DNA of 64,000 nucleotides, from positions 627,243 through 691,242 of the forward strand of contig CAJNDS010000446.1 in the NCBI GenBank assembly GCA_905221605.1, written 5' to 3'. The DNA is from Symbiodinium natans. Its lineage: Eukaryota; Sar; Dinophyceae; Suessiales; Symbiodiniaceae. Shown here one piece after another: positions 4,151-52,914 of this stretch (positions are counted from its first letter, which is position 1; every line of letters begins with the position of its first letter). The translations under genes were made by a program, and so were the position numbers. The notes beneath the pieces were generated by a model that was not told where the DNA came from, searched no databases, and worked only from the letters and a program-made list of their open reading frames with translations.

Positions 4151-5330
4151 GAGTGTACCCCAAAGCCTAGATACTATCAACCCCACGGACCTTCTAAGCC
4201 AAACACGAGGCTGCCCTAAGCCTCAAACCCTAAACCCTAGACCCTTAAACCCTTAAACCCTTAAGCTTGTAAACCCTGAAACCCTTAAACCCTTAAGCCT
4301 TTAAACCCTTAAACCCTTGAACCCTTAGACGCTTGAACCCAAAGCTTTTCACGCTTCCCTGAAACCCTAGACCACAAAAGCCTAAACCTGGAACACCCGA
4401 ACCGGCCCCAGACGTGCGGCTTTGTGTCTGGCGTCGACGACCACGCGCAGGTGGGTTCAGGGTTCTCAATAGCCTCTCTCCCACTGTTGGCGTTTAGGGT
4501 TTAGGGTTTAGGGTTCCGGGTTCAGGGTTTAGGGTTTAGGGTTTAGGCTTGTTTCAATGATCCGGAAACATCGCAGCTGGCTCCTTCGAAACTACATAAT
4601 ATAGGGGTCGGCAGAATTACGAATAATTTTCCCTTACGGTCCCTTTGTAAATATTCGAGAATAACTCCAAAACACTGATTCTAATTATTCAGGCCCCTAT
4701 ATGTGAAGCTCACGCCTGCTTACTCCTTCTGCAAAAGGTGATGTTTGGGTTTACGATGATGCATAGGACAGGGCTTCTAAGTCTTGATCATTGAACCCTG
4801 CGCCCTGCCTTAAGTGAACAGCTTGTGTTCTTGCAGGTTTCTTAAGAGTCAGCTTAGACCTGCAGCAAAGCAGGCTTGGGGCTCTTCAGGCCAGTCCGAA
4901 AAAATTGCTTTCCAGTAAAGGTTTTTTTAACTTGCCCCCAAGACCACAACTAAAAGCGCAAGCGCGCCAGGAAACTCATAGTATGCCATCACAATTCTTA
5001 AACCATAAACTTGTACCTTACAAGCACCCGCCGACAAATGCCTAAACCCGAATTATCAGATGAATCCATCCTCAAGCACCCAAACCCAACACCCTGAACC
5101 CTAAACCCATTTTGCAAAAGGGAGAGCTGATCTAGGATACCCAGGAGTGCCCCTAATCCCGAGTTTTTTAGGGTGAAGGCTCCCCATATACCTAAATAAG
5201 CCAAAAACCGTCACCTTGTTGGAGTGTCTTGGGAAAACCAAAGCCCTGAACCCTAAAACAACCAGGTGTAAAAAAAACAGCAACAAAACAACAAAAAAAA
5301 TGCCCTATGAACACTGTACTCGGAGTCTTA

Positions 5331-5652: not shown

Positions 5653-8600
5653 GGCGGCGGAATCCCGTACATGGAAGCCCTTTTGGACTTCGTAGGCAGG
5701 GTGGGTAAGGTGGGCTAAAAGAGGGTTTCTAGGGGATAGTCAGTAGGCATACTAAGTCTAAAGAGCTTCCAAGTAAGCCCTTATGCAGAGGCTTTGCGCA
5801 GACTAGGGTTTGGGGTTGAGGGAGTTTTGGGTTTAGGGTTGGTTTGTGGGGTTTTAGGGGCTAGGGGCTTGAGGAGGTTAACGGGAATTAGGGTTTTGGG
5901 GGTCGTGTGTGCGTGTTAGGGCTTTGCGGGGTGTAGGGTTAGTTTGGCATTTAGGTGGTTTGGGCTTCGGGAGTGTAAGGTTTACGCAAACCCGAAGACC
6001 CAAAGCCGAAATCTCAGGTGGTGGTCGCGGAGCAGATGAAGAAGCGAGCGGAGAAGACCGGCTTTTCCTTCGCCTTTGAGTCGAGTTTGTATCCTAAACC
6101 TAAACCCCAAACCCATATACCCTACACCCTATGCCCTATACCCTATTCCCCTCACCCGAAGGTGCATGCACCCTGGCAGTGCTGGGGGGTACCCCTAAAC
6201 CCGCTTGAGCCTCTATCCCGACAAACCTTATGAACCTTCCCAACCTGAAAACGCTTTAAGACCCTGCAAACCCTGCAAACCTTTCAAAAGAACCCCTTTA
6301 AAACCGTTTTCAAACCCCGTAAGACCCCATATATAAAACCCTATGAAACTCAGATCAAACGTTATAACACCCTGTAAAACCCCTACGAGATCCTGCAAAC
6401 CCCGGTATGGCCTACACTCTGTTATAACCTAAACCCGAAACCCCAAACCCTAAGCCCTAAACCCTAAACCCGAAACCCTAAACCCTATAGACGCTAAACC
6501 CTATAAACCCTAAACCCTATACCCTATAAACCCTATAAGCCCTAAACCCTAAACCCTAAGCCAGGAGGGTTTCAAAGGTTTCCGCATGCCCTGTAAGGCT
6601 CGAGGAGTTTTGCGGGTATTGGCGGTTCTTGACAGGGTTCATAGGGTTTAGGGTTTAGGGTTTAGGGTTAGGGTTTAGGGTTTAGGGTTTATGGTTTAGG
6701 GTTTAGGACTAGCTTGGAACGCAACCAGTGAACCAGCTCATGTTCAAATGCCTCGGAGACAACATGCAACGTGCAACCCTAAACCCTAATGTCCCGCAAC
6801 CCTCCCTAAAGCCTTAATCCCCAAGCAGTAAACTGTCCAGGGGTAGCTCTGAGCATCTTGTTGTATATTTATTTACCCTTAATCCCCTTTGTAAAGCCAG
6901 AACAACTGCAAATGTTCCCCTCAAACCTATCCCAGTTTCCCTCAGCCCTAAACCCTACCTACAAGGCGGCGCCCCCCCCTACTTTTCTTAGTATAGTTGA
7001 GGGATTTATAACCTAACTTAGGATCCTTCTAACCCAATTAGGGTCCAAAACCCTAAACCCGAAACCTTAAGCCCTAAACCCTGAAGCCTAAACCCTAAAC
7101 CCTAAACCCTAAACCCTCTCCTTGCGTCCTTCACCCGTGGCGCGAGCAGCGGAATCGGCAGGACCGGCCTCCAGTACATCTTGAACGTCGGCGACAACTT
7201 CTATCCGCAGGACCGGCCTGCTAGAACTAGGAATTAGGAGTTTTTTGAGCGGGATTTGGGGTTTAGGGTTTAGGGTTTGGGGTTTTGGAGCTTCCGCCTG
7301 CCCTATCAAGCCGAATGAACCCCTGAAAATTCGTAAACCCTAAACCCTACACCCTAAAAACTACAGCCTAAACCCCGCAATCCGCGGTCGCAGGGCATGA
7401 ACACGGGCTGTGGTAGCCCGATGAACCAGATCAAGGAGGCCACGAAGATCCAGTTTGAGAAGGCCGGGTTCGAGGGTTGGGGTTTGGGGCTTAGGGTTGA
7501 ATTAGGGTTTCGGGTGTGAGGTTTGGGTTTAGGGTTTAGGGTTTAGGGTTTAGGGGAATGCTGAAGGTCATGCGTGTGGCTTAGGCAATGTCACTGCGTG
7601 CTGTCGCAGGCCGGCTCAGGCGCTCACACGTTGTGACTATGACTAGGACCCAAAGTAGGCCCTTATTTCAGGGGGTTTAGGGTTTAGGGTTTAGGGTTTA
7701 GGGTTTAGGGTTTAGGGTTTAGGGTTTAGGGTTTAGGGTTTAGGGTTTAGGGTTAGGGTTTAGGGTTTAGGGTTTATGGTCTCGGGTTACTCTTGGGTCT
7801 AGGTGATCGGAAAGCCTGCAAAGTCCGTGTTTGCAGTTGCAGTTGCAATGCTGCCTGGCCTTGCTCAAACTTCCGTTCCCAGGATGAGAGCGACATGATC
7901 AGCATTATAGCAGCACGGACAGGGGAACAACATATAAGGCGGCCCTGAAATATTTCGGGTATGTACCCCCAAAAGGGACCATAATTTCCAGTATGTACCC
8001 CCCCCAACAGGGACCATAATTTAGAGTATATACCCCCCAAAAGGGACCATAACTTAGAGTATATACTCCCCCCAAAAGAAAACATAGTTTAGAGAACTGA
8101 GCAGATGTACTGACACCATGGTCAGAGCCCGCACTGTTTCAGCGCTTCGAAGCAGCAGCAGGACCAGCAGGCGTTTGCTTGCATGTTGGTGCCATGTGCC
8201 TGAAGGTGCTATAGTACCAGCTTTTAGGGTTTAGGGTTTAGGATTAGGGTTTAGGGTTTAGGGTTTAGGGTTTGGGGTTTCGGGTTTAGGGCTGTCCGCA
8301 GGATGATCCGATGCTCAGCAGCTGCCCCACGGGTTTGAGACGCTTGCATGGAGTCATGGGTTTGACTGGCTCCAGAAGCATATCCTCCGAGTCATGCAAC
8401 TTAGGGATTCCTGGGAGTATTTTCTAAGTTTTTTGGGTTTTTTTGTAAGTCCTAAGAAGCGACTAAAGTTACAATTTTTGCTAGGGTTCCACGTTCCGTA
8501 TAGGCAAGACACCGCAGCGCACCTTGCGCCACTGGCCGGCAAGGGCTGTGAGTCCGACTACCCAGCTGCCTGCTCTGCTTCCTGCTTGGGGCCTCCTTGC

Positions 8601-11600
8601 CGTAGCAGCATTCATGGCAATGGGCCTGCCTGTGTTGGTGGTCGCAACGAAGTAGCCGCACTGCGTTTAGCAGCTCGATTTCGGGGTTGTTTTGCTTAAG
8701 AAGCTGTGTGCCAGCATTCTTAAAAAACTTGTGGCCTTCCTGTACAGCAGTGCGCCGGGGTCATGTCAGGAGACGGACGCCCACAATGGCGAGCAAATCT
8801 TCCGAGCGTGAAGGCTTGTCTTCAGCCTGGCGTATCGCTTCGCGATTGACCTTTGGGAGTGCCCGCTCGCGAAGGTCATTCATTCTCATCGTGCTTCTTT
8901 TCATCTCGCTTGCTCTGGCAAACACTGCAGCTGTAGCCCAGTCTTTTGCCCAGCGAGACTACATGACAGCCTTGTCGCAAAAGCAAGCGGCGCTTTTCTT
9001 CAATAAGCTCGGATTGGCAATGGTCTTGCTCGCCGCCACGATGCCTTTCCGATCGCTGGCTGAATTTGCAGCGGGCGGACTAACTATCGTCTGGAGGGAT
9101 GCGCTCACTGACGGGCTGCTTCGAGACTATTTTCGCCCGAAGGTCGTCTATTGGTTGCGGCACGAGTCTCTTGGTAGCCCCATGGTACCTTCATATGGTT
9201 GCAAGGGACTTCTTGGCCCTAAGAGGTTGAGAAGCTGAACCCATGGTACCCTTTTGCCCCTGTTTTTCGGTTCAAGGTACCCCAAAAAAGTAACCAACCC
9301 CAAATTCGGGTACCCTTTGTTACCGTATGGATACTGGGCACCCTAAACCCTAAACCCTAAACCCTAAACCCTAGACCCTTGTTATAGTTTTGTTACTGCG
9401 CTACCAAGGTCTAATGTTCCAGACCCCGACATGAGGATAGCCGTGGAGGCTGGGCATTTCGCGGACATGCTGGTCCTGATGATCCGTGACTCGCATGCCC
9501 AGCAGTGCCCTAATTTCCCTTTTAGGGTTTCGGGTTACAGGTTTGGGTGTAGGGTTTAGGGTTTAGGGTTTGGGGTTTGGGGTTTAGGGTTTGGGGTTTG
9601 GGGTTTAGGGTTTAGGGTTTCTTTTTTGGGGGGATTGGGTTCCCTTATAAAACCCCTTTCAGCCCCCAATGTTTAAGCCCCAAACTCTTCCATTTTAATC
9701 GTTTCAGTAGGTTATTGGGCAGCCTAGGTGATGTCTTCGAGAATGTCCTGAAACTGTCAGGATTCCTCGGGGTCATGTACAGCATCTCCCCTCTACTCTG
9801 TCTCGTGATGGCCTCTTATGCTGCAGTGGGCGCGCTGGCGACGGTGAAGTTTTTTGGAGCACCGCTGGTCCGAATAGACCGGAGCATCAAGTCGCAGGAG
9901 TTAGCGGGTCCTTAAGGGAGGGAAGGGGGGCTATGTAACCCAAGGTTCCCTAATACTCCCTGATACCCCCTAAGGCCCCCTAAGCTTCCCGCAAGGTGCC
10001 TAGGTACCTACCCCCCTAAACCCTAAACCCTAAACCCTAAACCCTAAACCCTAAACCTTAAACCCTAAACCCTAAACCCTAACCCCCCCTCCCTTAAGAC
10101 CCCTGTAAAGGAGGCAGCCTTTCGTAAGTCCATCGCTCGATGTTTGGACCGCGCTGAGCCCCTTTGCCTCTGCGGTGGCGAGCCTTCAGAAAGCACCCGG
10201 GCGGCAACCCTAAACCCGAAACCCCAAACCCTAAACCCTAAACCCTAAACCCTAAACCCTAAACCCTAAACCCTAAACCCTAAACCTTTGCTGAGGTGCC
10301 GAGTCCCGAGGCCGGTACCTTAAGCTGCAGCAGCAGCAGTGGGCCCGGACGTTCTGGAGGACCAGCCTTGGAAACTGGGTAGGCCCTTGGGATATTTGGT
10401 TTAGGGTTTAGGGTTTAGGGTTTAGGGTTTAGGGTTTAGGGTTTAGGGTTTAGGGTTTAGGGTTTAGGGTTTAGGGTTTAGGGTTTAGGATTCCATCTAG
10501 GAAGATGTTTTTTTTCAGAGGTGTGTAAGGGGCCCAACCGAGGAACCTTCCGGGAATTCTTCAGCTGGGCTGCTTACTTGCTCCCTGTTGCAATTGTGTC
10601 TTGGACCCAGGGGGTTTATGGTTTAGGGTTTAGGGTTTAGGGTTTAGGGTTTAGGGTTTAGGAGTTGGGGTTCAGGGTAATTGTGTCTTGGACCCAGAGT
10701 AGGCCCTTGTTCCGCTTCTTGTTTGTTGCTTTATAGGTTCCCTTGTAAACCCGAAACCAAACCAGGTGCCCTTGTTCCACTCTGAGGGAAAAGTTGTGGT
10801 TCCCTTATGTTCCCTTATAAAACCCCTTTGACACCTAAAAAAGAGGGTGCCCTCTTCTTTTATGGGTTCCCCTACTACCCCCCCCCCCCCCCCCCCCTTT
10901 GTGGTACCCCCCCCCTAGGTTTAGGCTAGCTAGGGATAGGTAAGCCTAATTAAGGCTATTTAAGGGGGGAACCTAGGGGTATATAGTGTGGAGGGTGTAG
11001 TAGGGAGACCCTAAACACTAAACCCTAGACCCTAAACCCTAAACCCTAAACCCTAAACCCTAAACATATTCCTCTTGGCTGCTCTTGGGCCTAGGTGTCT
11101 CCTCTCTGGCTTCAGGACAAGGTGCCTTTTGGAACTGTGCCACAAGCCATCATGGCCTTCCAGGTGTCGCTGGGCGCGCTGACCGTGGTTGTTCGGAAGT
11201 TCCGTTCCCTAGTAGTAGATTAGGTAACCTTTAACCTTTTTGGGGTAGTAGATTAGGTAACCTTTAACCTTTTTTGGGGTAATGTTAACGTCGCTTTAAT
11301 AAACCCCCCCCCCCCCCCCAAATCTTGTTTTGGTCCCCGGGGTTTGGACGGGTCAAAAAAAAGAGAGGGTGTCAATAATGAGGATTCTGGGGTCTGGGGT
11401 CTGCGGCCTGGGGGTCTAAAGGTTTTAAGTAAGGAAACCTGGCTTTGAGATCTCTCGCGGCTTCCTGAATTCCAGGACCCGAAGGCTGAAGTCTTAAGCT
11501 TCAGGGATTCTTGCCTTGAGACTTGGACCAGGACCCGAAGCCTGAAGTCTTGAGCTTAAGGGTTCTTGTCTTGAGACTTAAAGGCAGCCATTTAAACTTG

Positions 11601-14600
11601 AGGCTTCCTTGGTTCCCCCCCCCTCGCCGAAATTATTATTGCCACCCATTTACTATTGTCATTTTGGAGGCCCATAAGGGGTACCCTTTCCGGACTTGTT
11701 TTCGAGCCCCGGGGGATAAGATTTTAGTAAAGAAACCTTGCTTTCAGACCTCTGGCGGTTTCCTGAATTCCAAGACCCGAAGGCTGAAGTCTTCAGCTTC
11801 AGGGACTCTTATCTGAAGCCTTAGAGGAAGACCTGCTCCTCTGAAGAAAGAGGCCTGAAGCAGTTTCTCGCAGCTCTGGAGCTGCAGCAATCTCAAGAGG
11901 CACCTGCTTCTCTGAAGAAACAGGCCTGAAGCAGCAGTTTCTCGCAGCTCTGGAGCTGCAGCAAATCTCAAGAGGCACCTGCTTCTCTGAAGAAACAGGC
12001 CTGAAGCAGCAGTTTCTCGCAGCTCTGGAGCTGCAGCAATCTCAAGAGGCACCTGCTTCTCTGAAGAAACAGGCCTGAAGCAGCAGTTTCTCGCAGCTCT
12101 GGAGCTGCAGCAATCTCACAAGACAAGCAATCTCAAACGAGATCTGCTTCTCTAGAGCCTCGGAGCTCGAAAAGTCTTCTCTGCAAGTAAAATTTCTGAT
12201 TCCTGGCCGGCCAAATATTACTGTTGTCACCCCATTATTATTTTCACCGGACCCCCCTATATAGACTTGTTTACACACATCGGCCCGAAAACCTCCCGTA
12301 ATGGAAAGTAGTCTTCGGCTGAGCCCCTCTGGCCCGGCGAATATTACAGTTGCCACCCCAATTATAGATGTGAGGTTAACATTAGTATAGCCCCCTTCTA
12401 TCCCTAAAGGTTGACCTTTAGCTCCCCCAGGCTTCTGGACAACTAAGGTTCCGTGTCCGCGTTGATTGCCGAGGGTAGCCGCCTGGAAGGGCTGGTTCAG
12501 GCACTGGCGGCGGCCTCGCGGCGTGCACAGAACCCACTCCCAGCGCCTGAGATCAGCAAAGCGGCCGTTGAAGTGGATGGGCTGTCGCTCAGTTTGCCTG
12601 ACGGATCTTTTCTCTACAGGCAACTCTCCTTTCAGCTGAAGCCGGGGGAGAGCCTGGTGGTGTTCGGGCCATCTGGTGCAGGCAAGACCACGCTGATTCG
12701 TGCCTTGGCTGGCTTGTGGGCAGGGGGTTCCGGGAGTCTCCGGCACACAAGGCCGGTGGCTTTTCTGCCACAGGATCCCTACATGCCCGAGGGTTCACTG
12801 CGTCGCGTGCTGTCATTTCCCTTGGCCGAGCACACGCTCCGGGATGAAGACATTCTGGCAGCTGCCCAGCGCCTTGGGGACCAAATGAACCCTCAAAGGG
12901 TTTATGATCCATATGCCTGAACAGGAATTATAGTAGCAAAGGGTATATGCCCCCCCCTAAACCCTAAACCCTAAACCCTAAACCCCAATTTTAAGGTTCA
13001 TTTCGTCCCCCAGGTGCTCCTGCCTGGGTGATGTCATCGCGCGGCATGGAGAGGACTTGGAGGTCGTTGCTGATTGGGAGGCCGTGCTTTCGAGAGGCGA
13101 GCGGCAGCTGAGATGCCCAGTAGTGCCCTCATTGTTTTTGTGTTTTTTTTGTTGGGGGGAGGGGGGGGAGTAGGGTTTGGGGTTTGAGGTTACGGGTTTA
13201 GGGTTAAGGGTTTAGGTTCCCACATGAACCCCTTTAAGAAGAGAAGGGTTCAACCTTTTCTATTCCTTGGTTACTGGGCAACCGAGGCAGCGATGTGCAT
13301 TTTGTCGACTGCTTCTGCTGCGGCCCAACCTGGCAATCCTGGATGAAGCAACTTCTGCCCTGGACGAGCCAACGGAGGAAGCCCTCTACCAGCAACTGCT
13401 GAGCCTGTGCGCCGGGATGAGCTTCTTAGTAGCTGAGTGAGTACACTTTACACATTTTGGGATACTATAACAATCCCCTATAAATCTGAAAGTGTGCACT
13501 TTTTAGGGGCTTATGAACTCAGCAAGTAAGGCTTTGTCTCCATCACACATCGCCCGGCCTTGCAGCGATTCCACACGCACGTGCTTCGCTTTGAGGTGGA
13601 TGAGTCTGGCGAAGCATCTGGGAAATTTGAAGTGAACACTGCTGCTACGCCATGAGAAGCACTTGGTGGATTGCTTTCAGATGCCTTGGGCACCAAACAA
13701 ACCCTAGAAGGGTCTTAGGCCTCAGAATACCTTGCAAGGGATGGTAAGTAGCTGCAAGAGGAAGGGTACATGACCCCAATTATAGGGTTCAGAATACCTT
13801 AATCGGGCTTATCGCTGTATAGGGTACATGACCCCAATGATAGGGTTCTTTCGGTCCCCAAGGTGTGCCAAGGAGAAGAAAAAAATTGACTCTGGGGCCC
13901 AGCGCGGGGCTTCAGAACCTCCCAACAGAGCCTGCGCCCACACACAAGCTTACTTGGAGGTTCATGGTACTTAGTAGAACCAAGTATAACTGTACTTATG
14001 GCCCGCATATAAGCCCCTTAAGTGCCCTAATATGGTTATAACAAGTACAATTATGGGTACAGTTATAACTGGTTAATAAGTACCATGAACCTCTAAGCAG
14101 AGCCTGCGCCCAGACATAGGCTTAGTTGCCATACTAAGGGTAACGGCACGACTTCTGGAGGGTAGTTTCATGGGCCCTGATTATGGTCCCTTAATATGTA
14201 GAGGGTGCATGAGGGGTATGGGCCACATTGTTGGCTCTAGGAACCTAAAAAAAACTAGGTAGGCCCTGAAGGGACATTGCTCGTACTTTCTCTTCTTGGG
14301 TTTCGCAGGATTCTAGTTAGGAATATTCGCTTGAACTCCCATGTTCTCCCTATCCTTACTCGGTTTCCAAACCCTAAACCCTAAACCCGAAACCCGAAAC
14401 CCTAAACCCTAAACCCTAAACCCTAAACCCTAAACCCTAAACCCTAAACCCTAAACCCTAAACCCTACACCCCCTAAACCCTAAACCCTAAACCCTAAAC
14501 CCTAAACCCTAAACCCTAAACCCTAAACCCTAAACCCTAAACCCTAAACCCTAAACCCTAAACCCTAAACCCTAAACCCTAACCCTAAACCCTAAACCCT

Positions 14601-17600
14601 AAACCCTAGCCTGGAACCTCAAGCGCAAGGCCTTTAACTGGGTCTACTCCGGGGCCCTGGCTGGAAAGCCCTGGCTCTCTGTTTTGGGGAACCACGACTA
14701 TGGCCTCCCGCCTGAGGTTTAGGGTTTAGGGTCTAGGGTCTAGGGTTTAGGGTCTAGGGTCATCATGGTTTAGTCCTATGTGGGGGTTTCGCCCGGGATT
14801 GGGGCATTTGTGTTTGGATGTTTTCGTTCTGTTGGGGGAAGTGTGGTTTAGGGTTCGATTTCATTTTTTTGTTTCGGCGGTGGCGTGGGTTTGGTTGTAG
14901 TGGTCCTTGCCACTCGGCTTGAGGTCTTTTGGTCAGGAGGAACAGACTGAACCCTAAACCCTAAACCCATTCTAGGGGTCCGAGGGTTCAGGGTGGCTGG
15001 GTGGATTGCCGGACTGAGCGCACATGGTTGAACATGTAGAGTTTACAATTGAAAAGTGGGATGTTCCTCTTATACTAACTGTCCTACAAGGGGATTATAG
15101 TACGCCCTATGATCATCCCTATTAAGGACTGTTAGTTTAAGGTGCAGCACCCCAAATTGACAACTTGAAGTTCACTTGGAGGTTCATGGCACTTCTTAAC
15201 CAATTTTACCTGTACTTACAACCCACTTCTAAGCCCCTAAAACGTGCCCTAATATGGTTTTAAGTACAGTTGTCAGTAAACCCACTTATAACCCACTTAT
15301 AAGCCCCTAAAAGGCGCCCCTATATGGTGATAAGTACAGTTATGACCGGTTAACTGTGCTTATAACCACTTATAACCCACTTATGAGCCCCCAAAAAGTA
15401 CCCAAATATGTGGTAACAATTACAGTTTTTAGTATAGTTACGTAGTTATAAGTGGTTAATACGTACCATGAAGCTCCAAGTAGGGATCCTTTGGAGTTTA
15501 GGGTTAGGGTTTAGGGTTTAGGGTTCGGGTTTAGGGAAACCCTAACCCTAAACCCTAAACCCTAAACCCTAAACCCTAAACCCCTGGTTAGCTACTTCAT
15601 CGGGTGCACGCGCATGATCCCGAGCCCCAAGCGACCATGCAACCCAGCTTCCGCCATGGGGCCCCAAAGCTTCCAGGAGAACCGGAACCCCACTTTGGTT
15701 GAGGGTTTAGGGTTTAGGGTTTAGGGTTTAGGGTTTAGGGTTTAGGGCTTAGGGTTTAGGGTTTAGGGTTTAGGGTTTAGGGTTTAGGGCTCAGGGTTTA
15801 GGGTTTAGGGTTTAGGGTTTAGGGTTTACAAGGTTTAGGGTTTAGGGTTTATAAGGATAAGGGTGCACAGGCACGGAAGCCCCAAATCCCTACACCCTAC
15901 ACGCCCTACACCTCAAGCCTTGAACCCCTGTTGCTGTTTGAGGTGCACGCCAGTTCAACTACGCCTGGGACCAGCAGGCACCAACAGCCTATAGTGCCTA
16001 AATTCTACTTTAGGGTTTAGGGTTTAGGGTGGCCCAAAGCCCAAATCTGAACCACGAATCCTACATCCTAAGCCTTACAGCCCGGAGCACTACCTGAACC
16101 CTACCTACACCCCACAGGCCCTACAGCCCTGAACCCAAGCCATGCTCGAACCAAAGATCCAGACCCCTGATTTTAGGGCTTGGGGGGTTCAGGGTTTAGG
16201 GTTTAGGGTCAAGGGTCTAAGGTCTAGGGTCTAGGGTTTAGTGGGTTCAATGGGTACAGTTTTTAGATGTTTAATATTCGGGCGCTTAAGGTTTCTAGGG
16301 TTCGAGGGCTTAGAAGTTTAGAGTTTAGCCGAAGCCCTAAACCCTAAACCCTAAACCCTAAACCCTAAATCCTAAATCCAAGGCTTTAGGGTGTGAGGTT
16401 TCTTCCAGATCTTCTGCTCAGATCCTTGCGCCTTGCGGCAGGTGGCGTACACTTGGGCCAGCGCAGGGTCCTGAGATTGCGCTCGGCAAGGCTTTGAGAC
16501 TTCAAGGTACTGTAGGGGTGTAGAGTGTAGGGTTTAGGCTTTAGGCTTTAGGGTTTAGGGTTTAGGGTTTAGGTTCAGGGTTTAGGTGCAGGGCTCAGGG
16601 TTCAGGGTTCAGGGTTCAGGGTTCAGGGTTCAGGGTTCAGGGTTTAGGCATTCAACTTGAAACCCTCCAGCTTCTCAGGACCATGACGCTGATGTCCAGA
16701 GTTTTTTGGTGCTTTTGCAGGGTGAGAGGTGGCTTTCTGCTTTGCTGTTTCAGGGGGTTCGACATCTGAGTTGTCCATGCTCAATGCGCCTTAAATCCCT
16801 ACCCCCAACCCTAAACCTTGAAGCCCAACCAAGTCTTGAAACTCGAAAGCCTGGAGCCGTATGCTGGGCCAGCCCACTCGACGCCCTATGCCCTGAACCT
16901 TAAATCTCCTAAGACTCTGTACCCTAAACCCGAAACCCTAAACCCTAAACATTATCCACACAAAAACAGTAATTACTCGAGGACCGGTGGGTGATGCCGG
17001 CGCTGTACTTCAGCCAGCACGTGCGCTATCCTGCCGCAGCCCCACAGCTCTGGTTGAGGGTTTTGGGGTTTCGGTTTAGGGATTAGGCGCTTAGGGTTTA
17101 GGGTTCAGGGTTTGGGGTTCAGGGTTTAGGGTTTGGAGTGTCGGGTTTAGGGTTTTAGGGACAGCCCGGCGGCTCTAGCATGAGGGTTTCACCTCAAAAC
17201 CGCTGCAGTCCTCGCCTTCGCTTGCTCATGCAGCTTGCCGCCTTCCTCTTGCTGCAGCTGGAGCCGGGCCTTCTTCCTGGTGCTGCAGCTGTCAGAAGCG
17301 GTCATGATAAGCAAGACGAAGCCACAGCGAAAGCGAGAAGCTGAGGCTGCCCATGGGGTTCCTGACAGAACGCAACGCCAGGCACGTGGCGCGGCAGTGG
17401 CAAGTGCTCTGGGATATCACTGAAGCCGAGAACCTCTGCACTGGCTACAAGAAGGCGCAGGCCTGGTACCCATTCGGCCGGTAGTGTATGGGAGTACTAT
17501 ACTTGAATGTTTTTTTTTGACAGCTCTGGTATAGGGTTTAGGGTTTTGGGGTGGGGTACGGGCTTAGGGGCTTAGAGGTTTAAGGGTTTTGGGGTTTAGG

Positions 17601-38600: not shown

Positions 38601-41600
38601 AGGGTTTTGGGTTTTGGGTTTAGGGTGTTTCGAGCTTTTAAAGGGTTTGCTGGGTGTTTCGAGCTGTTAAAGGGTTTGTAGGGTTTTGTGGGGTTTTGTA
38701 GGGTTCTTCGGTTTCGGGTTTAGGGTTATCTCCGAGTTCGAGGAGCGGGCTTTTCGGGTTCGGCGAAGTCGAGGTGCTCTTAAAGGGTTTTGAGGGTTTA
38801 GGGTTTAGGGTTTAGCGTTGAAAAGGTTTAGGGTTTGTAGGGTTTAGGGTTCAGGAGTTTGGGGTCTGTGGGGTGTAGGGTTATGAGTTTAGGGTTTGTA
38901 GGGTTTGGGGTTCAGGTGATTAGGGTTTGTGGGTTTAGGACTTTAGGTTCTAGGGTTCAGGGCGCAGAGCTTGGGGTCTTTTGCTAAGGGTTTCGAGGGT
39001 TTGCAGCCTTAGGGTTTAGGGTTTAGGGTTTAGGGTTTAGGGTTTAGGGTTTAGGGTTTAGGGTTTAGGGTTTAGGGTTTAGGGTTTAGGGTGAAGAGCT
39101 TTTCGGGCTCTCCGAATTCCGAATCCGAGTTAGGTCTCAGGGTGTGGGCTTGAGGAGCCTAGGGTTGGTAGGATTTAGGGTTTAGGGTTTAGGGTTTAGG
39201 GTTTAGGGTTTAGGGTTTAGGGTTTAGGGTTTAGGGTTTAGGGTTTAGGGTGTGTTTCGTAGGGTCTTGTAGAGTTTGTGGGGTTTAGGGTAGAGGATGA
39301 TGCCCTCTTCGCAGGAGAACCTCATCAAAGAGCTCAAGGAGTTCGATGTCCCCTGCTACCTAGTGCGCAACAAGGCGGCTCATGCGCCCATCTCTAGGGT
39401 TTAGGGTTTAGGGATAGAGGGTTTCGGGTTTAGGGTTTCGCGACGTCCGAAAACCCTAAAACCCCCCCAATGCAATCTCGAGACGTTCAGCTTAACCTGC
39501 AACAAACAGCTGGTTTGGGGCTCACGGGACTCCAATCCCGACGTCTGAAGCTCTGTGGCCTAGGGACTTATATATATATATATATATATATATGTACATA
39601 TTTATTAATATATTGTTATTTATATTTATATTTATATATATATATGTATATATATATATATCGTTGCTATGCTTGGGGCTTCGAAGATAAATAACATACC
39701 CTAGGCTTTAAACCCTTTCGAGGTAGGTGGCCCCCTCAGTATGCAGGGACCCGTTTTGTACCCCTTATATGCCTCTACTACCCAAGGGCCCATACTTCAG
39801 AACCCTGTAAAGGGGTAAGGGACTATATGAAGGGACCATGTAGCTACGCTTAAAGAGGATACGTTAGAGGTGAATGGGCCCGCCCACCTCATTTTGGGGC
39901 TACGGGCTATGGGGCCCTTACCCTAAACCCTAAACCCTAAACCCTAAACCCTGTTGCGGCACATGGGCCCTCGTTTCAGGCGTTTAGGAGCTGGAATAGG
40001 GAAGGTAGGCCTTCTAAACAATGGCAAGGCGTGCCCCAAACCCTGAACCCCAAACCCTAAACCCTACACCATAAACCCTAAGAACTAAGCCCTAAGACCT
40101 CAACTGCATTTTAGGTTGTCTGTAGTTAAGGGCAGTTACTACGAAGCTGTAGGTTGGGTACATCGTCCTTTCTTGGGGTTTATGAAGGGTCTTAAGGGTC
40201 GAGGGTTTTGGGGCGCAATTAGGCGGCTTCGGGCTGTTTTGGGGTTTAGGGTTTAGGGTTTAGGGTTTAGGGTTAGGGTTAGGGTACCCTTCTCATGGCG
40301 CCCTCTCTCGGCGCGAGGAGGGAATACTGTATCGGGGCCTATACGCTACACCTCTTAGTAGGGAATGAGGGACTGAGGTAGCCTATAATATCCCTTAAGG
40401 GTATATATAGGGGATTATCAGGCTCCTACTTCCCTCATTCCCTACTAAGAACCAGGGGGATTAAAGCACTAAACCCTAACCCTAAACCCTGAACCAGCGG
40501 GGGGTCACCCTAAACTCCGAGATTGATATGCCCCCGGAAGAGCGGAATTGGGCAGGTAGACCAGGACGTGATGAACAACGCGCAGGACGTAGGGTTTAGG
40601 GTTCAGGGTTTGGGGTTTAGGGTTTAGGGTTAGGGTTTAGGGTTTTGGGTTTTGGGTTTTGGGTTTTGGGGGTTTCAGGGCGTCATGGGAAACCAGGATC
40701 CTTACAACGAAGCAGACGGCATTGCAAGCTCTAAGTTGCAAGCCCGTAAGCCCCAAGCCCCTAAACCCCCTAAACTGCTGAAGCCCTTAAATCCCTAATG
40801 CCCCTAAACCCCTGAAGCCCTAAGACCCTTCACCCCGTAAACCCTAAAACCGCAAAAGACCTAAAGCCCCTATAGACCCCAAAACCCTTAAACCTTGCAA
40901 ACATTCGTACATCCCGAAAATCCCTAGAACCACTAAAACCCCTAAAGCCCTAAGCCCCAAAGCCTCAAAACCCCTGAAACGGAAAAACCCTGAAGGCCCT
41001 TAAAAAGCTCTAACCCCCCCCCCCCAAAAAAAAAAAAAAACAACAACAACAACAACAACCCTTAAGCCCTAAACCCTGAGCCCCCAAAGCCCTAAACCGA
41101 CCCCTAAAACCCCAAAGGCTCTAAGGTTGGAACCATGGGTTTAGGGTTTAGGGGGTTGTAAAAGGGATCCGAAGTATGGGCTCTTATTTTGTATGGTGTA
41201 CAAAAGGGCAAGGTGCCCAAAGTAAGCGCCCATACTTGGAACCATAAATAAGCCCGATAGCCCTAAACCCTCCCCGAAAACCCTTAAACCCTAAAGCCCG
41301 TACACCCCTCAAACCCCGAGGCTCCTAAGCCCCCAAAATCCCCTAAAACACGCCTAAAGCCCTTAGATAAATCCTAAACCCCTAAAACCTTCGAGAGGGG
41401 TTGGGCAAGAAATCTAGGCTTTGAGGCTCGCCGCTATGCTCTTCAGCGGACGAGCCTGTGACAATCCCCTGGTGCTCGGAGCGGCCAATATCTTTTCGGG
41501 GTCACGTTGCAGCCACTGGGTTCGGCCAGCGGTCTTTACGTGGACCGTGCCGGGGCAATCACAGGCGCCGTCGGAGGACGCGCCATGGCTGTGAAAGAAT

Positions 41601-44600
41601 CAGCTGAAACCGGAGCTACACCACGCAGACTCCAAGAAAATCATGCGCCGTTTGATCGAGATCGAGGACAAGATTTCTGCGGATTGGACAGGCAAGAAGT
41701 GCCCCACATGCTCTGGAGGAACTTTCTTGAAGTTGTTATTAGGACAAGGATGCCCGCAATGCCTGTACTCATTGAAGTGATTAGCTATTTAAGAATAGTA
41801 AGCGGTAGGGGTATCAGGGGGGGGGGAGCATGTTTACACATGCATGTATATATATATATATGTTCATATTTGTATATGCAGATGTGTTTTGATCTAAATG
41901 TATACGCCTGAGAATGAAGTTCTTTTTGCTGGGTCTGACTACTTGTTGTTTGTTCCGCACCTTGTAGACCAGGTGTACATCCGAACTTAATTTCGCGAAT
42001 CACTTATGGTGCTCCCTGATTAAACCCTAAACCCTAAACCCTACAAATGTGCCTAACCTGTCCTGGATACTCCCGGTAAGATGTGGAGAGACGTCTGCCC
42101 ACGCAGGACAACGAGATGTCGACGGAGGAGACGCTGAGAGTCTCTGGGCTGCGTTTAGGGTTTTAGGGTTTAGGGTTGAGGGTTTGGGGTTTAGGGTTTA
42201 GGGTTTAAATTTCCAGGATTTCTCATAATTACATAGGATAGTTTCCTAAGTCTGTTCTATCTTAAGCTTATAACATCCTATCGTTTACAGCCATATCAGG
42301 CCCTGTCTAGTCAGACCCTAAGATGGTTTTCTTTATCCTGGCAACTGAACCCTTAAGACCTGAAGACCTACTTGTTTGTAGGTTACACCTTAGAGTTTAG
42401 GGTTTAGGGTTTAGGGTTTAGGGTTTAGGGTTTAGGGCTAGAATCCTATAAAAGGGTTTTTTTAGAATCAGAGCCTACAAAAATGGCAGGTTGTTGCGGT
42501 TCGCAAGGATGGCTCGAAAGCCGAAAGCCCTGCCTTGGAAGCCTTTTTTAACTTCGTAAGTCTACTGGGTTCAGGGTTTAGGGTTTAGGGTTTAGGGATA
42601 CTAGGAACCAGGGTGGGCCCTTCTTTCTCTTTTTTTACGATGTAGGTTCGCTTATAAGCTAGTTATTCCTAGGTTACTCCCTAGAAAACTCTTATAGTCC
42701 CCATAGCCCACCTTACCAACCCTACTGACGAAGTCAAAAGGGCTTCCAAGTACACCCCTAAACCCTAAACCCTAAACCCTAAACCCTAAACCCTAAACCC
42801 TAAACCCAAGGGCTTCCGAGTACACCCAGGCTTTGCGACGCGAGCTGGCGCCCAATTCTGCGCCAGCGCGCGCCTTCCTCGTGTCTGCCAAGCACCCCGC
42901 GTCTTGCCAAAGGGCTTTGGGGCGGGGAGCCCTAAACCCTAAACCCTGAAACCCTGAACCCTGAACCCTGAACCCTAAGCCGGTGTACGAGGTTTGGGTT
43001 TTTTCGGCTCAGGGTTTACGGTTCGTAGGGCAGAGCTTGGGGGGCTCTCGGGGAGTTTGTTCCTGAGTCAGGGATGAGGCGAAAAAGGATGCCCAGACCA
43101 TTCTAGGTAGCATAAGGGGGACCCTCAAAAGGGAACCCTTCTGAACCCTCTTCTGGCTCTCTTAAACAGGGACCTTATTGAGAGGGTCTATAGCCCCAAG
43201 GGTCCCCCTAATCCTACCCCCTAGACTAGACTTGTTTTAAGAAAATGTGGGATCTGGGCCTCTATTTAGCGAGTTTCCTGCTGTTCAGGCTGCTTCCTCC
43301 TAGTCAATATACAAGGGTCAAACGGTGTTGACTGTTGACTGTATTTAGCAGCAACCTACAATCACGAGGCCGATGTTGTTTTCTACAACTCATTCATTAC
43401 CTGCAAAAAGCCGCTTTCCTGACTCAAGGGTTCTGGCAATCACCATCGGTTCCTGCAACAGAAAAGGGCCTTGGGATTCCACTTTTATTCAGCAAAAAGT
43501 GAAATATTGGCATCCGTTTGCTATTTTCCCGATGTTAGGGCATTCCTGCTTCAGCGATTCTTGCGGATGATCGGTGCCTGAAGCAGAAAAGAACCTAGAA
43601 ATTCGAAATTTCGAATTTCCATTTTCCCCGAAAGAAGAAAGTCAAATCCGGGCCTCCGTTTGCTGTTTTCCTGCTGCTCGCGCTGCTAAACCCTACACTC
43701 AATCGGAGGCAGGCAGATGTTGTCTTCGAGCAATCATTCATTACATGTAAGACCCCCCCCAAAAAAAAAACAACTTAGTTAACAGCTGTTTCTGACGCGT
43801 CGAATTGCTCACGCTTGTTCGAGCCCCTCTAAACCGAAAACCTGCGAACCGTGAACCTGAAACCCTAAATACCCAAAATCCCCAACCCTGGATTTAGGGT
43901 TTAGGGTTTAGAGTTTAGGGTTTAGGGTTTAGGGTTTAGGGTTTAGGGTTTAGGGTTTAGGGTCCCCCCAACCCTAAAGCCCTAAAAACCCCCCCAAGGA
44001 CTGCGCCAAGTTTGACTTCCAGAGCCTTCTCCGTGCCATGGCAGACGACGTGGCGGCACAGCGGGCCGAGGCAAGGCCTGTAGTTCAGTTGTTTTTTTTT
44101 TTTTTTTGGGAGGGTAGGGTTTAGGGTTTAGGGTTTAGGGTTTAGGGTTTAGGGTTTAGGGTTTAGGGTTTAGGGTTTAGGGTTTAGGGTTTAGGGTTTA
44201 GGGTTTAGGGTTCAGGGTTCAGGGTTCAGGGTTCAGGCTTCACGGCAAGGGTTTAGAGGGTTTAGGGTTTTAGTTTATAGGGTCTAGGACCCAGAGTAGG
44301 TCCTTGGTTCCTTTTGTTAGGGGCTTAGGTTCCCTTATAAGGCCCTTTAAACCAAAGAGGGCGCCCTGTTAGTCCGAGGTTAGGGTTTAGGGTTTAGGGT
44401 TTAGGGTTTAGGGTTTAGGGTTTAGGGTTTATGGTTTAGGGTGGGTCTAGGGGTTCAAGGTTTTAGTTTACAGGGTTTGAGGGTTTAACTTGGGTTTTAT
44501 GCTGTTTGTGGTCGAGTTAGGTGTTTCTTGGGGCCCTTTTGGATTTTTTTTTTGGGAGGGGGCGGGGGGCTTTTAGGGTTGAGGGCTTAGGGTGCGAACC

Positions 44601-47600
44601 CTAAACCCTGAACCCTGAACCCTAAACCCTAAACCCTAAACCCTAAACCCTAAACCCTAAACCTTAACCCGGCTTAAGGGTTTGGAGGGGATTGATTCGA
44701 CAGAACAGGTGGCCGCCAGGAAGGGCGAGGTCTTCCCTCTGGCTAGCCTTGTTGAAGGTTTAGGGTTTAGGGTTTAGGGTTTGGGGTTTAGGGTTTAGGG
44801 TTTAATTTTAGGGTTTAGGGTTTAGGGTTTAGGGTCGAGGGTTTAGGGTCTAGGGTTTAGAGTTCAGGCTTTAGGGTGTAAGGGTTCAGATTCGAAAGGT
44901 GCGTTCATGGAGGGATGGGGTCGACAGAAGAGCCGTGCAGGGAAGAGCCGGCGCTGAGATGTCTTCTGAGATGCAATGGTGCAAAGTCATGGTATTGGAG
45001 TTTAGAGTTTAGGGTTTAGGATTTAGGGTTTAGGGTTTAGGATTTAGGGTATTGGAGTTTAGGGTTTAGGGTTTAGGGTTTGTGGGCAGGGTCGTAGGGG
45101 GTTGAGCGTTTTTAGCATATTCTACTAAGGGTGCCCCTTCTTGGGGGTTGGTTTGCTTTTGCCAAAGCAATCCAACTGGACCCAGGGTTCAGGGTGGAGG
45201 GTTGAGGGTTTAGGGTTTAGGGATTAGGGTTTAGGGTTTAGAGCCATATGCATCCCAGACTCCTTGCTAACTGCTTCTTAGGCTTCGAAACGATTGTGGC
45301 CAGCGGGAGCACACAGTCTCCGGATGCCGTGCAAAGACTGCATCAAACCCTAAACCTTAAACCCGAAACCCCAAACCCCAAACCCCAAACCCCAAACCCT
45401 AAACCCTAAACCCTTCAATCCCTAAACCCCCCCACTCCCCATCCCAAATCCCACGGCCCAAGACCCAACCTCAGCCATGAATCAGGCGCCGGAGCTGCCA
45501 GATCAGCTCCCCGGAGTACCGATATACTGTAGGGTCGAGGGTTTAGGGTTTAGGGTTTAGGGTTTAATTTAGGGTTAGGGTTTAGGGTTCAGGGTTCAGG
45601 GTTTAGGATTTAGGGTTTAGGGTGCAGGGTTTCGGAGCCTTCTGGGATGTGAGGGCTAAGAGTCGCCATGGCACCGGTGTCCAAACACAGTAAGGCTAGA
45701 GAGTAGAGGGCTATCATGCCGATGCTACAAGTTTTGGACAGCCCTAAACCCTAAACCCTAAACCCTAAACCCTAAACCCTACAGCGGGTTCCGGGCTTAG
45801 GGTCCCAAGAGTGCTGGGTGCAGGGCTCAAGGTTGAGATTCACGGGGCTGCTACACCTCGACAAGCAGCCGGACATCCCAAAATTGGGTTTAGGGTTTCG
45901 GGTTTTGGGTTTAGGGTTTAGGGTTTAGGGTTAGGGTTTAGGGTTTAGGGTTTCGGGTTTTGGGTTTAGGGTTTAGGGTTCAGGGTTCCGGGATTTAGGG
46001 TTTAGGGTTTGGTCCTAACCTCTAAGCACCGCTCAACCTCTAGTATCCCAAAGCCAAAGATTTAGTTCCCCGAATACCCCCCTCAACCCCTCATCTTCCG
46101 ACTCCCTGGCCGCCCCGAATCCCAATCCCCAAGCCCTAAACCCTAACCCCCAAACCCCTAAACCCTAGACCCCTAAACCCCTAAAACCCTAAAACCCTAA
46201 AACCCAAACCCCAAACCCCAAACCCACCCCAAACCCTAAACCCTAAACCCCTAAACCCTAAACCCCTAAACCCTAAACCCCAAACCCCAAACCCTAAACC
46301 CTAAACCCCAGACCCTAAACCCCAATCCCTAAACCCCAAACCCCTAAACCCCAAACGGGCGCTCGAGGCTGGAAGGGCTTCCGGCGCGCGACCTCCTGTG
46401 CTTGGAGGGCCTTGGGTGTGACATGGGCCAGGCGCGGCTGCTCTTCGCTAGGGTTTAGGTAGGGTTTAGGGTTTAGGGTTTCGGGTTTAGGGTTTTGGTC
46501 TATTTAGGTTCAATTTTGGTCTTCGGGGAGCTCCAGGCTAGACTAAGCGTTTCCAGAATTATCCGAGATGCCCCCCCTGCATGGTACGATACACCCCCAG
46601 CCAGTCTGGCCTAAACTGTACACCCTGGACCCTAAACCCTCAACCCTACACACTAAACCCCCAAAATGTAAACCTCAAACCCTAAACCCCAAACCCTAAA
46701 CCCTAAACACAGGCAGCCGAGCCGGCCGCCCCGCCATCCTCCGCCGCCCCCACGCGCGACCCGGGGGCTGAGAGCCCGGAGCCGGCGAACACGTTTTTGT
46801 GGGCCGGCCGGGCCTGAAACTCTGGGGTTTAGGGTTTAGGGTTCAGGGTTCAGGGTTCAGGGTTTAGGAACTCGGACCCAGAGTAGGCCTCCTCTGTTGT
46901 TAGGGTTTCGGTTCCCGCTCCTTCCAACTAAAACGGGCGCCCGTTTTTTCCCCCCCCCCCCTTTTTTGTTCCGGGCGTAGTTGTAGCGCACGAGGTTGTG
47001 GGGCCTGCCTAAAGACATAAAGGTGGCTTAGGGTTGAGGGTTTAGAGTTTAGGGTAGCTCCTGTTGTGGTTCAGGGTGAAAGGGTTTACTTCCCCCGATG
47101 AGGGGATCTACGTTCCAGCCCTAAAACCCTAAACCCTGACCCCTGAACCCTCAAGCCCCAACATCCGAGTTGCTTTGGGCCGACCGGCCACTGACCCAGT
47201 TAGTGCCATGGGATCACAAGGAGAGCCCAGAGCCACTGAACCCCAAACCCTGAACCCTAAACCCCAAACCCCAAACCCTAAACCCTAAACCCTAAACCCT
47301 AAACCCTAAACCCTAAACCCTAAACCCTAAACCCCCAAACCCTAATCCCCAGAGTCAAGGCGTACTCAGGAGTCCTCCTTGGGATCCTATGCTATGTTAG
47401 TGCCTAGGAAATGTCCCGGCTGAGAGTATCCTGTGGTTTTCAGGCCCGGGGATTTTCGGGAGCTGACGTTCGTGTTTGAAGTCCACTGCAACTCCATTGC
47501 AGACCCAAGCCCAAAACCCTAACACCCCCCCCCCCCCCCCCCCCCGAAATGGGGTTTAGGGTTTAGGGTTTAGGGTTTCGGGTTGGTTTACGATTTAGGG

Positions 47601-50600: not shown

Positions 50601-52723
50601 TTAGGGTTTGGGGTTTGGGGTTTAGGGTTAAGGGTTTGGGAATTAAATCTTGGAGTTCAGGGTTTAGGGTGCACTTGGGGTTTAACCCTAAACCCTTTAA
50701 GTTCTCGAATAGTTAAAACCATTGAAGCCCTTTAAGCCCTAAACCTTAACCCTTAAAGAGTTAAGCCCTTGCCCCTGAACTCTTTCGGGGTAGGTCCTGT
50801 GCGGGGGTGAACCAAACCCCCTTCATCACCCTTCAGCCTTTACCCTTTAGAAGCTGCAGAAAAGCATCTGTGGAACGCCCTGTTGAGTCCCTCTCACAAG
50901 GGTTCACTCGTTGAGTCCGTACTCCGTTACAGCTTAGGTGAAGGGTTTCGGGTTTATACTTGCAATTCTAGCTACTACGAGCAGGAGTCCGTGCCTCTTT
51001 ATCTCTGCGGCCCCGGCGCGGCCCACGGATCCCCTACCACTGTTCTTTGGCATGGGGGGGGGGGGGGGTTCGAGTTCAGGGTGTTCCTGATACCCGAAAC
51101 CCTAAACCCTATAAACCCTAAAGCCTAAACCCTAAACCCTATAACAATCCCTAAAGCCTAATTATCCCTCAACCCTGTAGAGCTTAAACCCTGCAAACCT
51201 TAAACCCCATGAACCCTAATCCCATTCCAAAGCCGCTGGCTCTCCCTTGTGCATCCGCTGAACAAAGTGGCGCACCTTGCGTGCATCTTCAAGCGTCACA
51301 GATGAGACAAGGAAGCTGCTGAGACACAGCAGTGGACATCTTTGTTCCTGTGACTCTGTCTGGATTCCTGTGTATGTGGAGGCAAGCATCACGATTGCCG
51401 TACTTGTAGAAGTGCGGGACATTGGAGAATGCAGCCTCCATGGCCCCAAACATTGGAGAGAGCAGCCTCCATTGCCCCAAAGCCCTAAAGCCACCTTGCC
51501 TGGATGGGATTCCCAACAGGGGCATAGTCTGAGTTTTCAAGACGGGAATCAAACCCTAAACCCTAAACCCTGAACCCTGAACCCTAAACTCGAAACTTGA
51601 GAAGGGCAACGAGGTGGCAGCTGAGCTGAGAGCAGCTTTGGCAAGCTGCTGCGACAAGAGCCTTGCAGTGGCAAGCGCTTTTCTTGTGGACGCCAAGTCG
51701 AATTCCCATAGTCTTGGCGATGCTACCCTAGACCCTCATCCCTAAACCCTAGGCCCTAAGCCCTAGCCTGTTTTTGTTCCTTGGAGCAGAAGATAGTTTC
51801 AGACATGCATGGGTCCTGGGGCAAGTGAGTCCTGACAAGGACAGTGCGCTGCAGCTTACAGAGCAGCTAGAGATCCCCTGGAAACTTTTGAGCTCTGAAA
51901 AGGGTTTAGGGTTTAGGGTTTCGGGTTTAGGGTTCCTGCACGCGCTCTCAGTCCCACTTCCTTAACATAGCTCTATCTTAAATTCCCGTTACGGCCGTTT
52001 AAAGTAAAGCTATCAGCCAGTCTTTGTCAGGCTCAACAACCGCTAGAAGCCACATACGTAGCTTGTCTGCCTAAAAACAAAAAGACTCTTCCTTGTAATG
52101 GCAATATAGGGATAATTATCTTGCATTTTTGTTTGGGGGGGGGTTCTTAAGCAAATAGTTGCCCTAAACCCTAAACCCTAAGCCCTAAACCCTAAACCCT
52201 AAACCCTAAACCCTAAACCCTAAACCCTAAACCCTAAACCCTAAACCCTAAGCACATACTATGCCCCTGGTTGGGCTCAGGCTTCTTTGATTTGACGATG
52301 TCCAAGTCCAACATGAAGGCCGAACTGGTGAACTACAAGGGCAACGTCGTCACCTGGCTTGTTTGGGGGTGTAGGGTGTAGGGTTTAGGGTTTAGGGTCT
52401 AGGGTGTAGGGTGAAGGGTTTAGGGTCTAGAGCTTAGGGTTTAGGGTTTAGGGCCCATGTTCTTACATGGCCCGTCTCTAAGGTTGACCCTCTAGACCCT
52501 GAGAGGATCAAAAGTGCTATGGGTGCGGACTTGCCACTCTGATGTTTTGATCTTAGGGATTAGGATTTGTGGGCCTGAACCCGCCCCCCCCTTCCTGCCC
52601 CCCCCCCCCCCCCGCAGGCGCCCCCCCCCGCCCCCCCCCCCGACCCCCCCCCCCCCGCCACCCCCCCCCCGGCCCCCCCCCCCCCCCCCCCCGGCCCCCC
52701 CCCCCCGCCCCCCCCCCGGCCCG

Positions 52724-52754
<31 letters not shown>

Positions 52755-52914: not shown

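Follow-up and report, generated by a model that had tools for sequence, protein, structure and literature searches.

How does a cell produce the messenger RNAs (mRNAs) of both genes when one lies in an intron of the other, on the same strand? This question is raised by a 64-kb stretch of the dinoflagellate Symbiodinium natans (contig CAJNDS010000446.1, positions 627,243 to 691,242; hereafter the window), where four genes all lie on the + strand: a phosphatase gene, an ABC transporter gene, an immunity-related GTPase (IRG) gene and a putative intronless gene, an open reading frame (ORF) of 531 codons. An initial annotation of the stretch had described nesting of these genes three levels deep. 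We consider it about 70% probable that the locus is a one-way gene cluster of the dinoflagellate type. A large phosphatase gene would house the ABC and IRG genes in swollen introns of introner origin, the IRG gene would in turn house the intronless gene, and outer and inner genes would be expressed from separate RNA molecules. The five motifs that we searched for were found within a few bases of their annotated positions, on the + strand.

A phosphatase gene with an ABC transporter gene in its intron

The outer gene is of the tartrate-resistant or purple acid phosphatase type, and its bacterial relatives are annotated as metallophosphoesterase and tartrate-resistant acid phosphatase type 5. 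Pfam Metallophos (PF00149) is matched at 27.2 and 26.1 bits (cut-off 21.5), with the GD, GNHD and GHxH motifs of the metal site present. On the assembled pieces, the 26.1-bit match aligns GDNFY to GHIH with profile positions 28-189 of 191. The GNHD motif occurs a single time in the three + frames of the window. Like known purple acid phosphatases, the gene has GDNFYP, GNHDY, GHxH and the C-terminal strand pair; unlike them, it is spread over ~46 kb, and some conserved segments were not located. Its parts are as follows.

6021..6055, + strand: phosphatase exon VVAEQMKKRAEK, from spliced profile alignment, frame join and junction letters; start not fixed
6056..7161, + strand: phosphatase intron, GA-AG, its two ends marked by GACCGGC as a direct repeat
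7162..7210, + strand: phosphatase exon with metal-site GDNFYP, from Pfam Metallophos and a profile match of 46.0 half-bits
7394..7462, + strand: phosphatase exon GMNTGCGSPMNQIKEATKIQFEK, the last before the ABC gene, from the frame join
7463..14629, + strand: phosphatase intron holding the ABC gene, GC donor and AG acceptor, AAG|GCC at both ends
14630..14702, + strand: phosphatase exon AFNWVYSGALAGKPWLSVLGNHDY with metal-site GNHD, from the window's best profile match (73.5 half-bits) and the frame join
16982..17020, + strand: phosphatase exon DRWVMPALYFSQ, from a profile match of 49.8 half-bits; end approximate
18509..18562, + strand: probable phosphatase exon GFEVDIFMLDSNVPAP, from spliced alignment (array-bounded islands; also a longer form); weak alone
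27041..27111, + strand: phosphatase exon RDWYAKLRDLGLDLLVTGHIHE with metal-site GHxH, from spliced profile alignment and the end of the Pfam Metallophos match; start approximate
47444..47503, + strand: initially annotated phosphatase exon PGDFREL, in phase with GHIHEQ, without independent support
52281..52348, + strand: phosphatase C-terminal exon FFDLTMSKSNMKAELVNYKGNV, located past the IRG gene, from a profile match of 53.4 half-bits

Four of these exons can be joined across the ABC gene, where the initial annotation had claimed an in-phase join from 7462 to 14630. Together, 6021-6055, 7162-7210, 7394-7462 and 14630-14702 give VVAEQMKKRAEKTGLQYILNVGDNFYPQGMNTGCGSPMNQIKEATKIQFEKAFNWVYSGALAGKPWLSVLGNHDY, which is free of stops and spans GDNFYP and GNHDY; the other two frames of the join contain stops. 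The ABC gene lies in the third intron of the join (7463-14629, GC-AG), and the host exons flanking this gene share one frame. The intron has a TTTAGGG array near its start and a CCCTAAA array near its end.

The order of the pieces provides further evidence. We scanned both strands, without gaps, with a phosphatase profile of 302 columns made from two plasmid-borne and 80 genome-contig relatives (80 kept of 106 found). The four best matches all lie on the + strand, do not overlap in the protein and are positioned in protein order: 7175-7207 (46.0 half-bits), 14624-14701 (73.5), 16985-17017 (49.8) and 52277-52351 (53.4). The next-best match scores 42.0 half-bits, and the best on the - strand 41.4. 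Among 150 column-permuted profiles run on the + strand, best scores have a mean of 41.1 (standard deviation, sd, 3.2) and a maximum of 50.8; 6.7% of these profiles reach 46.0, 1.3% reach 49.8 and none reaches 53.4.

Spliced alignment of the profile within islands bounded by telomere-like arrays scores 223, compared with 62-95 for five control profiles (one reversed, four permuted) run with an identical penalty. The islands were the C-to-G islands (CCCTAAA array on the left, TTTAGGG array on the right) of the first 54.5 kb, plus 5901-6100, which was added by hand. This alignment includes chance pieces (e.g., at 1308, 2214, and 32542), and its evidence is the total score, not the individual exons. 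We kept the exons that join in frame and the matches at or near the top of the permuted-profile range. The GHIHE exon (27041-27111) aligns with the GHEHD segment of the profile; for the GDW and GHH metal sites, the profile scan and the spliced alignments yield chance-level candidates only.

Other phosphatase candidates were rejected. Spliced alignment of the whole window with single bacterial phosphatases, or with a low intron penalty, gave many chance exons. A match at 44286-44354 (42.0 half-bits) was at null level, and a candidate at 31703-31837 overlaps a dispersed repeat, whose two copies (21995-22133 and 31804-31943; 91.5% identity over 142 nucleotides, nt) lie in two non-coding stretches of the phosphatase region. 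The same region has a low-GC stretch of ~1 kb at 23201-24200 (0.33-0.43 per 200 nt vs. 0.49-0.59 in the flanks), perhaps a foreign or organelle-derived insert.

The gene in intron 7463-14629 is complete.

8786..13655, + strand: complete ABC half-transporter gene of 11 exons (ABC_membrane_2 and ABC_tran), from spliced alignment, Pfam, solved structures, ATG and TGA
8786-9165, 9409-9485, 9728-9897, 10111-10192, 10296-10370 and 10543-10595, + strand: ABC exons 1-6
11095-11203, 12448-12914, 13054-13103, 13287-13408 and 13531-13655, + strand: ABC exons 7-11

Its exons from 8860 to 13607 were recovered in the first 27 kb of the window by spliced alignment to two cyanobacterial ABC transporter ATP-binding protein/permeases (here L083 and L084), with scores of 693 and 638. 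The two alignments have the same introns in 8 of 10 cases. Exon 10296-10370 is weakly aligned (scores of 9 and 0), and the junctions after 10192, 12914 and 13408 are uncertain. Pieces that placed the first residues of the homologues at 5675-5691, 794-830 and 4412-4454 were dropped, yet they are counted in the two total scores. An in-frame ATG at 8786 lies 25 codons ahead of the aligned start (21 residues in L083), and a TGA stop lies at 13653-13655; the ABC coding sequence is therefore complete inside the phosphatase intron. By sequence comparison, the protein is closest among solved structures to ABCD-type transporters. The largest ABC intron contains a tandem repeat (11831-12118; 74 nt unit, 3.9 copies).

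The IRG gene and the third level

The second nested gene is recognized by six pieces, all inside one gap between phosphatase exons.

32192..32265, + strand: IRG exon with P-loop GPCGSGKS, from Pfam IIGP and IRG structures; ends approximate
34122..34156, + strand: IRG exon KAYMFQGDLARFT, from the IRG structure match and junction letters; start approximate, GC donor after
37788..37830, + strand: IRG exon with G3 motif LWDLPGAGT, from motif search and the IRG structure match; end approximate
38500..38575, + strand: IRG exon VRDAGLRHFDGVLIVTSGPISEFEE, from the IRG structure match; ends approximate
39300..39370, + strand: IRG exon ENLIKELKEFDVPCYLVRNK, from the IRG structure match; ends approximate
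43996..44080, + strand: probable IRG exon AKFDFQSLLRAMADDVAAQR, the last piece recognized, from a weak match of 4.5 bits

We concatenated these pieces (32192-44080) by hand in genomic order, giving a query of 125 residues. The joined pieces match solved IRG proteins with an E-value of 2.9e-8 as a whole, with no stretch significant alone. In the best structure match, the first two stretches score 12.1 and 16.2 bits, and the last, which holds 43996-44080, 4.5 bits. Pfam IIGP (PF05049) scores 35.8 bits (cut-off 24), and the G motifs follow in their expected order, on pieces that were concatenated in genomic order. The core of an IRG gene is thus firm to 39370 and probable to 44080, the last piece being weak. 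Like other immunity-related GTPases (IIGP, Irgb10, Tgtp2), the gene has the P-loop, LWDLPGAGT and LVRNK-type segments and, weakly, the KFDF helix; unlike them, it is divided into many small exons, and its terminal parts were not found.

The initial annotation had also placed an intronless gene between the residues FT and LWDLPGAGT of the IRG gene, and this placement agrees with our results. FT (ending at 34156) and LWDLPGAGT (from 37788) are neighbors in the IRG alignment, and the letters at the junctions fit a GC-AG intron, 34157-37787. The ORF inside this intron is intact.

35062..36657, + strand: intact intronless ORF of 531 codons in IRG intron 34157-37787, from ATG, stop and length
35031..35049, + strand: possible dinoflagellate spliced-leader relic, from a gapped match (score 19) that ends 12 nt before the 531-codon ATG

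When the bases of the intron were shuffled 300 times, the longest stop-free run averaged 108 codons and never exceeded 253; the ORF is therefore unlikely to have arisen by chance. Its codon usage is weak (0.016 bits per codon under a model trained on the ABC exons; one reverse frame has 0.039), and the support for the ORF as a gene is therefore its length. It has no significant Pfam family and no relative in a scan of viral contigs; a single-sequence structure prediction of the protein was of low confidence (pLDDT 40) and was not used. The putative spliced-leader relic ahead of it is suggestive only: 2.0% of 200-nt windows hold a match as good, and matches with the same or a higher score turn up at other sites and in shuffled sequence. 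An ungapped search for the spliced leader returned nothing convincing.

Two further observations concern the IRG region. A 148-codon open frame (41462-41905) lies between two IRG exons, with a zinc-ribbon-like piece (CPTC...CPQC) in another frame; Pfam gives nothing above cut-off for it, and it is possibly a further nested gene. An Rfam group II intron fragment matches 31987-32085, over a CCCTAAA array, at 32.9 bits (cut-off 32; E = 0.0065), probably by chance.

Intron ends and telomere-like repeats

Intron ends carry direct repeats of the kind seen in introners. We compared the first bases of each intron with the first bases of the following exon for 14 introns: four of the phosphatase gene (one ending at the unsupported 47444 exon) and ten of the ABC gene (with three uncertain junctions). 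The shared run is 1-7 nt and reaches at least 3 nt in 10 of the 14 (GACCGGC, GTGTCT, GTTCC, GCAGC, GTCT, and others). The runs sum to 48 nt, whereas re-paired donor and acceptor ends give 21.3 (sd 4.0), and none of 20,000 permutations reaches the observed sum. The ten ABC introns alone give 34 nt vs. 15.5 (sd 3.0), again with no permutation of 20,000 as high. The aligner preferred AG before and G after a junction, and repeats played no part in its score. The 14 introns thus show, as a set, the short target-site duplication at splice sites that is expected of introners. For terminal inverted repeats the picture is mixed: they are strong in some ABC introns and absent in others (summed score P = 0.003). 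The short ABC introns 9166-9408 and 9898-10110 have clear terminal inverted repeats together with direct repeats of 3-4 nt and are introner-like.

Direct and inverted repeats at intron ends have been described for dinoflagellate introners (PMC7789003, PMC11453091). In the portions of these sources used here, the likeness extends to introners of Amoebophrya (PMC7789003) and to those of Roy et al. 2023 (via PMC11453091): direct repeats at intron ends, and inverted repeats in some short ABC introns. This likeness is judged from intron ends only, and the large introns here differ in carrying telomere-like arrays near their ends. Donors in the window are GT, GC and GA; GC and GA donors account for 25-74% in Symbiodiniaceae, according to the part of PMC11453091 consulted. 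This mix of donors and the TTTAGGG arrays are both indicative of a dinoflagellate genome.

The telomere-like arrays are spread over the whole window, with 685 exact TTTAGGG and 597 exact CCCTAAA units. Their orientation alternates more often than expected. Among arrays of at least two units, orientation switches in 131 of 204 steps, compared with 102.5 (sd 7.1) in shuffled order (P = 0.00015); among arrays of at least three units, it switches in 101 of 165 (P = 0.003).

This alternation is related to exons. We counted arrays within 70 nt of the edges of 25 exons against 20,000 rotations, with some exon ends approximate and the unsupported 47444 exon included. CCCTAAA lies before 14 exons and TTTAGGG after 14, giving 28 of 50 edges vs. 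12.0 expected (P = 0.0005). Edges with the reverse arrangement number 7 of 50 vs. 12.1 expected. By gene, oriented edges number 13 of 16 for the phosphatase (P = 0.0003) and 7 of 12 for the IRG gene (P = 0.014); for the ABC gene alone they are not significant (8 of 22 vs. 5.3 expected, P = 0.16). When the nearest unit on each side is taken at any distance, both have the expected orientation for seven of eight phosphatase exons vs. 1.7 expected (P = 0.003), and the IRG and ABC genes are at chance (2 of 6, P = 0.38, and 3 of 11, P = 0.41, respectively). Arrays of the wrong orientation flank phosphatase exon 6021-6055 on both sides. In the IRG gene, a TTTAGGG unit, also the wrong orientation, lies within 70 nt upstream of three of the six exons.

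Gaps between units point the same way. Among gaps of 60-260 nt, 12 of 65 in the C-to-G class contain a known exon; the figure is 3 of 39 for G-to-G gaps, 2 of 38 for C-to-C gaps and 0 of 44 for G-to-C gaps. In the 53 C-to-G gaps that remain, the coding score is slightly higher on the + strand than on the - strand (6.84 vs. 6.02, P = 0.017). These gap results and the island alignment indicate that the repeats carry some information on exon position, and that the outer exons behave as those of a + strand gene.

A more active role for the arrays is conceivable but doubtful. The repeats would mark introns, with (TTTAGGG)n after donors, (CCCTAAA)n before acceptors and an inverted pair bounding the large introns. 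Their role would be to define splice sites, through runs of G after the donor and a C/U-rich tract before the acceptor. Introns could then grow tens of kilobases long and enclose complete genes, three levels deep, while the host mRNA is kept. We rejected hairpin pairing between arrays as the cause of intron looping. It fails to explain the orientation, because arrays flanking an exon could pair equally well. The oriented arrays are the feature most deserving of follow-up. If their orientation at splice sites holds genome-wide, one repeat would link intron growth and gene nesting.

Proposed origin of the nesting, alternatives and known systems

The proposed cluster offers an answer to the question of how both mRNAs are made. 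The introns would have started as transposon-like insertions (introners), later grown, gained telomere-like arrays and become large enough to take in other genes; for the 531-codon gene, insertion of a retrocopy is a possible route. Most likely, every gene would either have a transcript to itself or be expressed from a separate molecule of a long one-way precursor, the 5' end of which would be set by spliced-leader trans-splicing at that gene's own first acceptor. A leader joined at the acceptor of an inner gene would strip the outer 5' part from that molecule. With separate RNA molecules, no single RNA must give both the outer and the inner mRNA. The trans-splicing step follows a proposal for dinoflagellates, found in the part of PMC7245778 drawn upon here, that leader trans-splicing splits polycistronic precursors. 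The choice that the initial annotation posed, between splicing that ignores a complete inner gene and separate transcripts, appears logically sound.

Nesting of the phosphatase, the IRG core and the 531-codon ORF to three levels on one strand is partly supported, by homology, frame and order. Several results weigh against the proposed cluster. The start and stop of the IRG gene were not found, its recognized part being 32192-39370 and, weakly, 43996-44080. Its full nesting in the phosphatase gene is thus inferred from the core, and the two genes could interleave instead. The annotated join from GHIHEQ to PGDFREL (47444) is in phase, but no profile match above 36 half-bits corresponds to PGDFREL and the junction depends on phase; continuation of the phosphatase past the IRG gene therefore rests on the match at 52281-52348. 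No convincing position was obtained for the GDWG start, the surroundings of GHHP or some 40 profile columns that follow GHxH. Repeats between exon end and intron end at the donor side are not above chance in the 14 introns (P = 0.11). Finally, no clear spliced-leader relic precedes the ABC and IRG exons, where 16% and 13% of 400-nt windows do equally well.

Three alternatives bear on these results. The unplaced phosphatase segments (the GDWG start, around GHHP and after GHxH) would fit pieces that are what is left of two genes, or of a single gene that an insertion or rearrangement disrupted, with no phosphatase mRNA made. We regard this as unlikely: the pieces do not overlap in the protein, follow its order and share one strand, the frame is open over the four joined exons, and the + frames contain a single GNHD. 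That the IRG gene has its start upstream of 27 kb or its end downstream of 52 kb, and so overlaps the phosphatase without being enclosed, seems slightly less likely still. Its first and last exons leave room for this, but the recognized pieces, which cover most of the GTPase motifs, all lie inside one phosphatase gap. A misjoin, by which different loci were stitched together via TTTAGGG arrays (a repeat type, present throughout the window, at which assemblers may err), is very unlikely. No sign of one was seen in the window sequence; the lack of any N in 64 kb, the even GC (0.47-0.56 per 2-kb bin), the common strand of the four genes and the AAG|GCC at both ends of the ABC-holding intron each argue weakly against it.

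Judged from sequence, the anatomy given by the initial annotation is largely right, whereas the strangeness of the nesting for such a genome was overstated. The nesting is deep and on one strand, but intron-nested genes number 4,898 (8.4%) and 3,359 (6.5%) in two isolates of the dinoflagellate Polarella glacialis (PMC7245778). In the sections of that report on which we rely, 71-75% of nested cases are one per host, with up to 18 and 24 in a single host gene, and full-length transcript support is stated for the nested genes. Because such genes are already reported there, the locus belongs to a known kind of nesting, of which it is a deep example confined to one strand. Both genomes have genes in introns of multi-exon genes, sometimes several per host, in one-way clusters. 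The S. natans locus differs in that the nested ABC and IRG genes themselves consist of multiple exons, with one more gene lodged in the IRG gene; the comparison was made without the nesting depth in PMC7245778. A literature search, which covered few subscription journals, found neither three-level nesting in a dinoflagellate nor telomere-like arrays oriented by splice sites, and this is weak evidence of novelty. The locus packs three levels into ~47 kb, with complete coding sequences for the ABC gene and the 531-codon ORF and with defined junctions, and is a good test bed for distinguishing separate transcripts from a trans-spliced long precursor.

Comparison of the window with itself, with the arrays masked, gives 31 pairs, many of which are local tandem repeats. 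At the window's end (63645-64000) lies a tandem repeat with a 105 nt unit, where open frames overlap on both strands.

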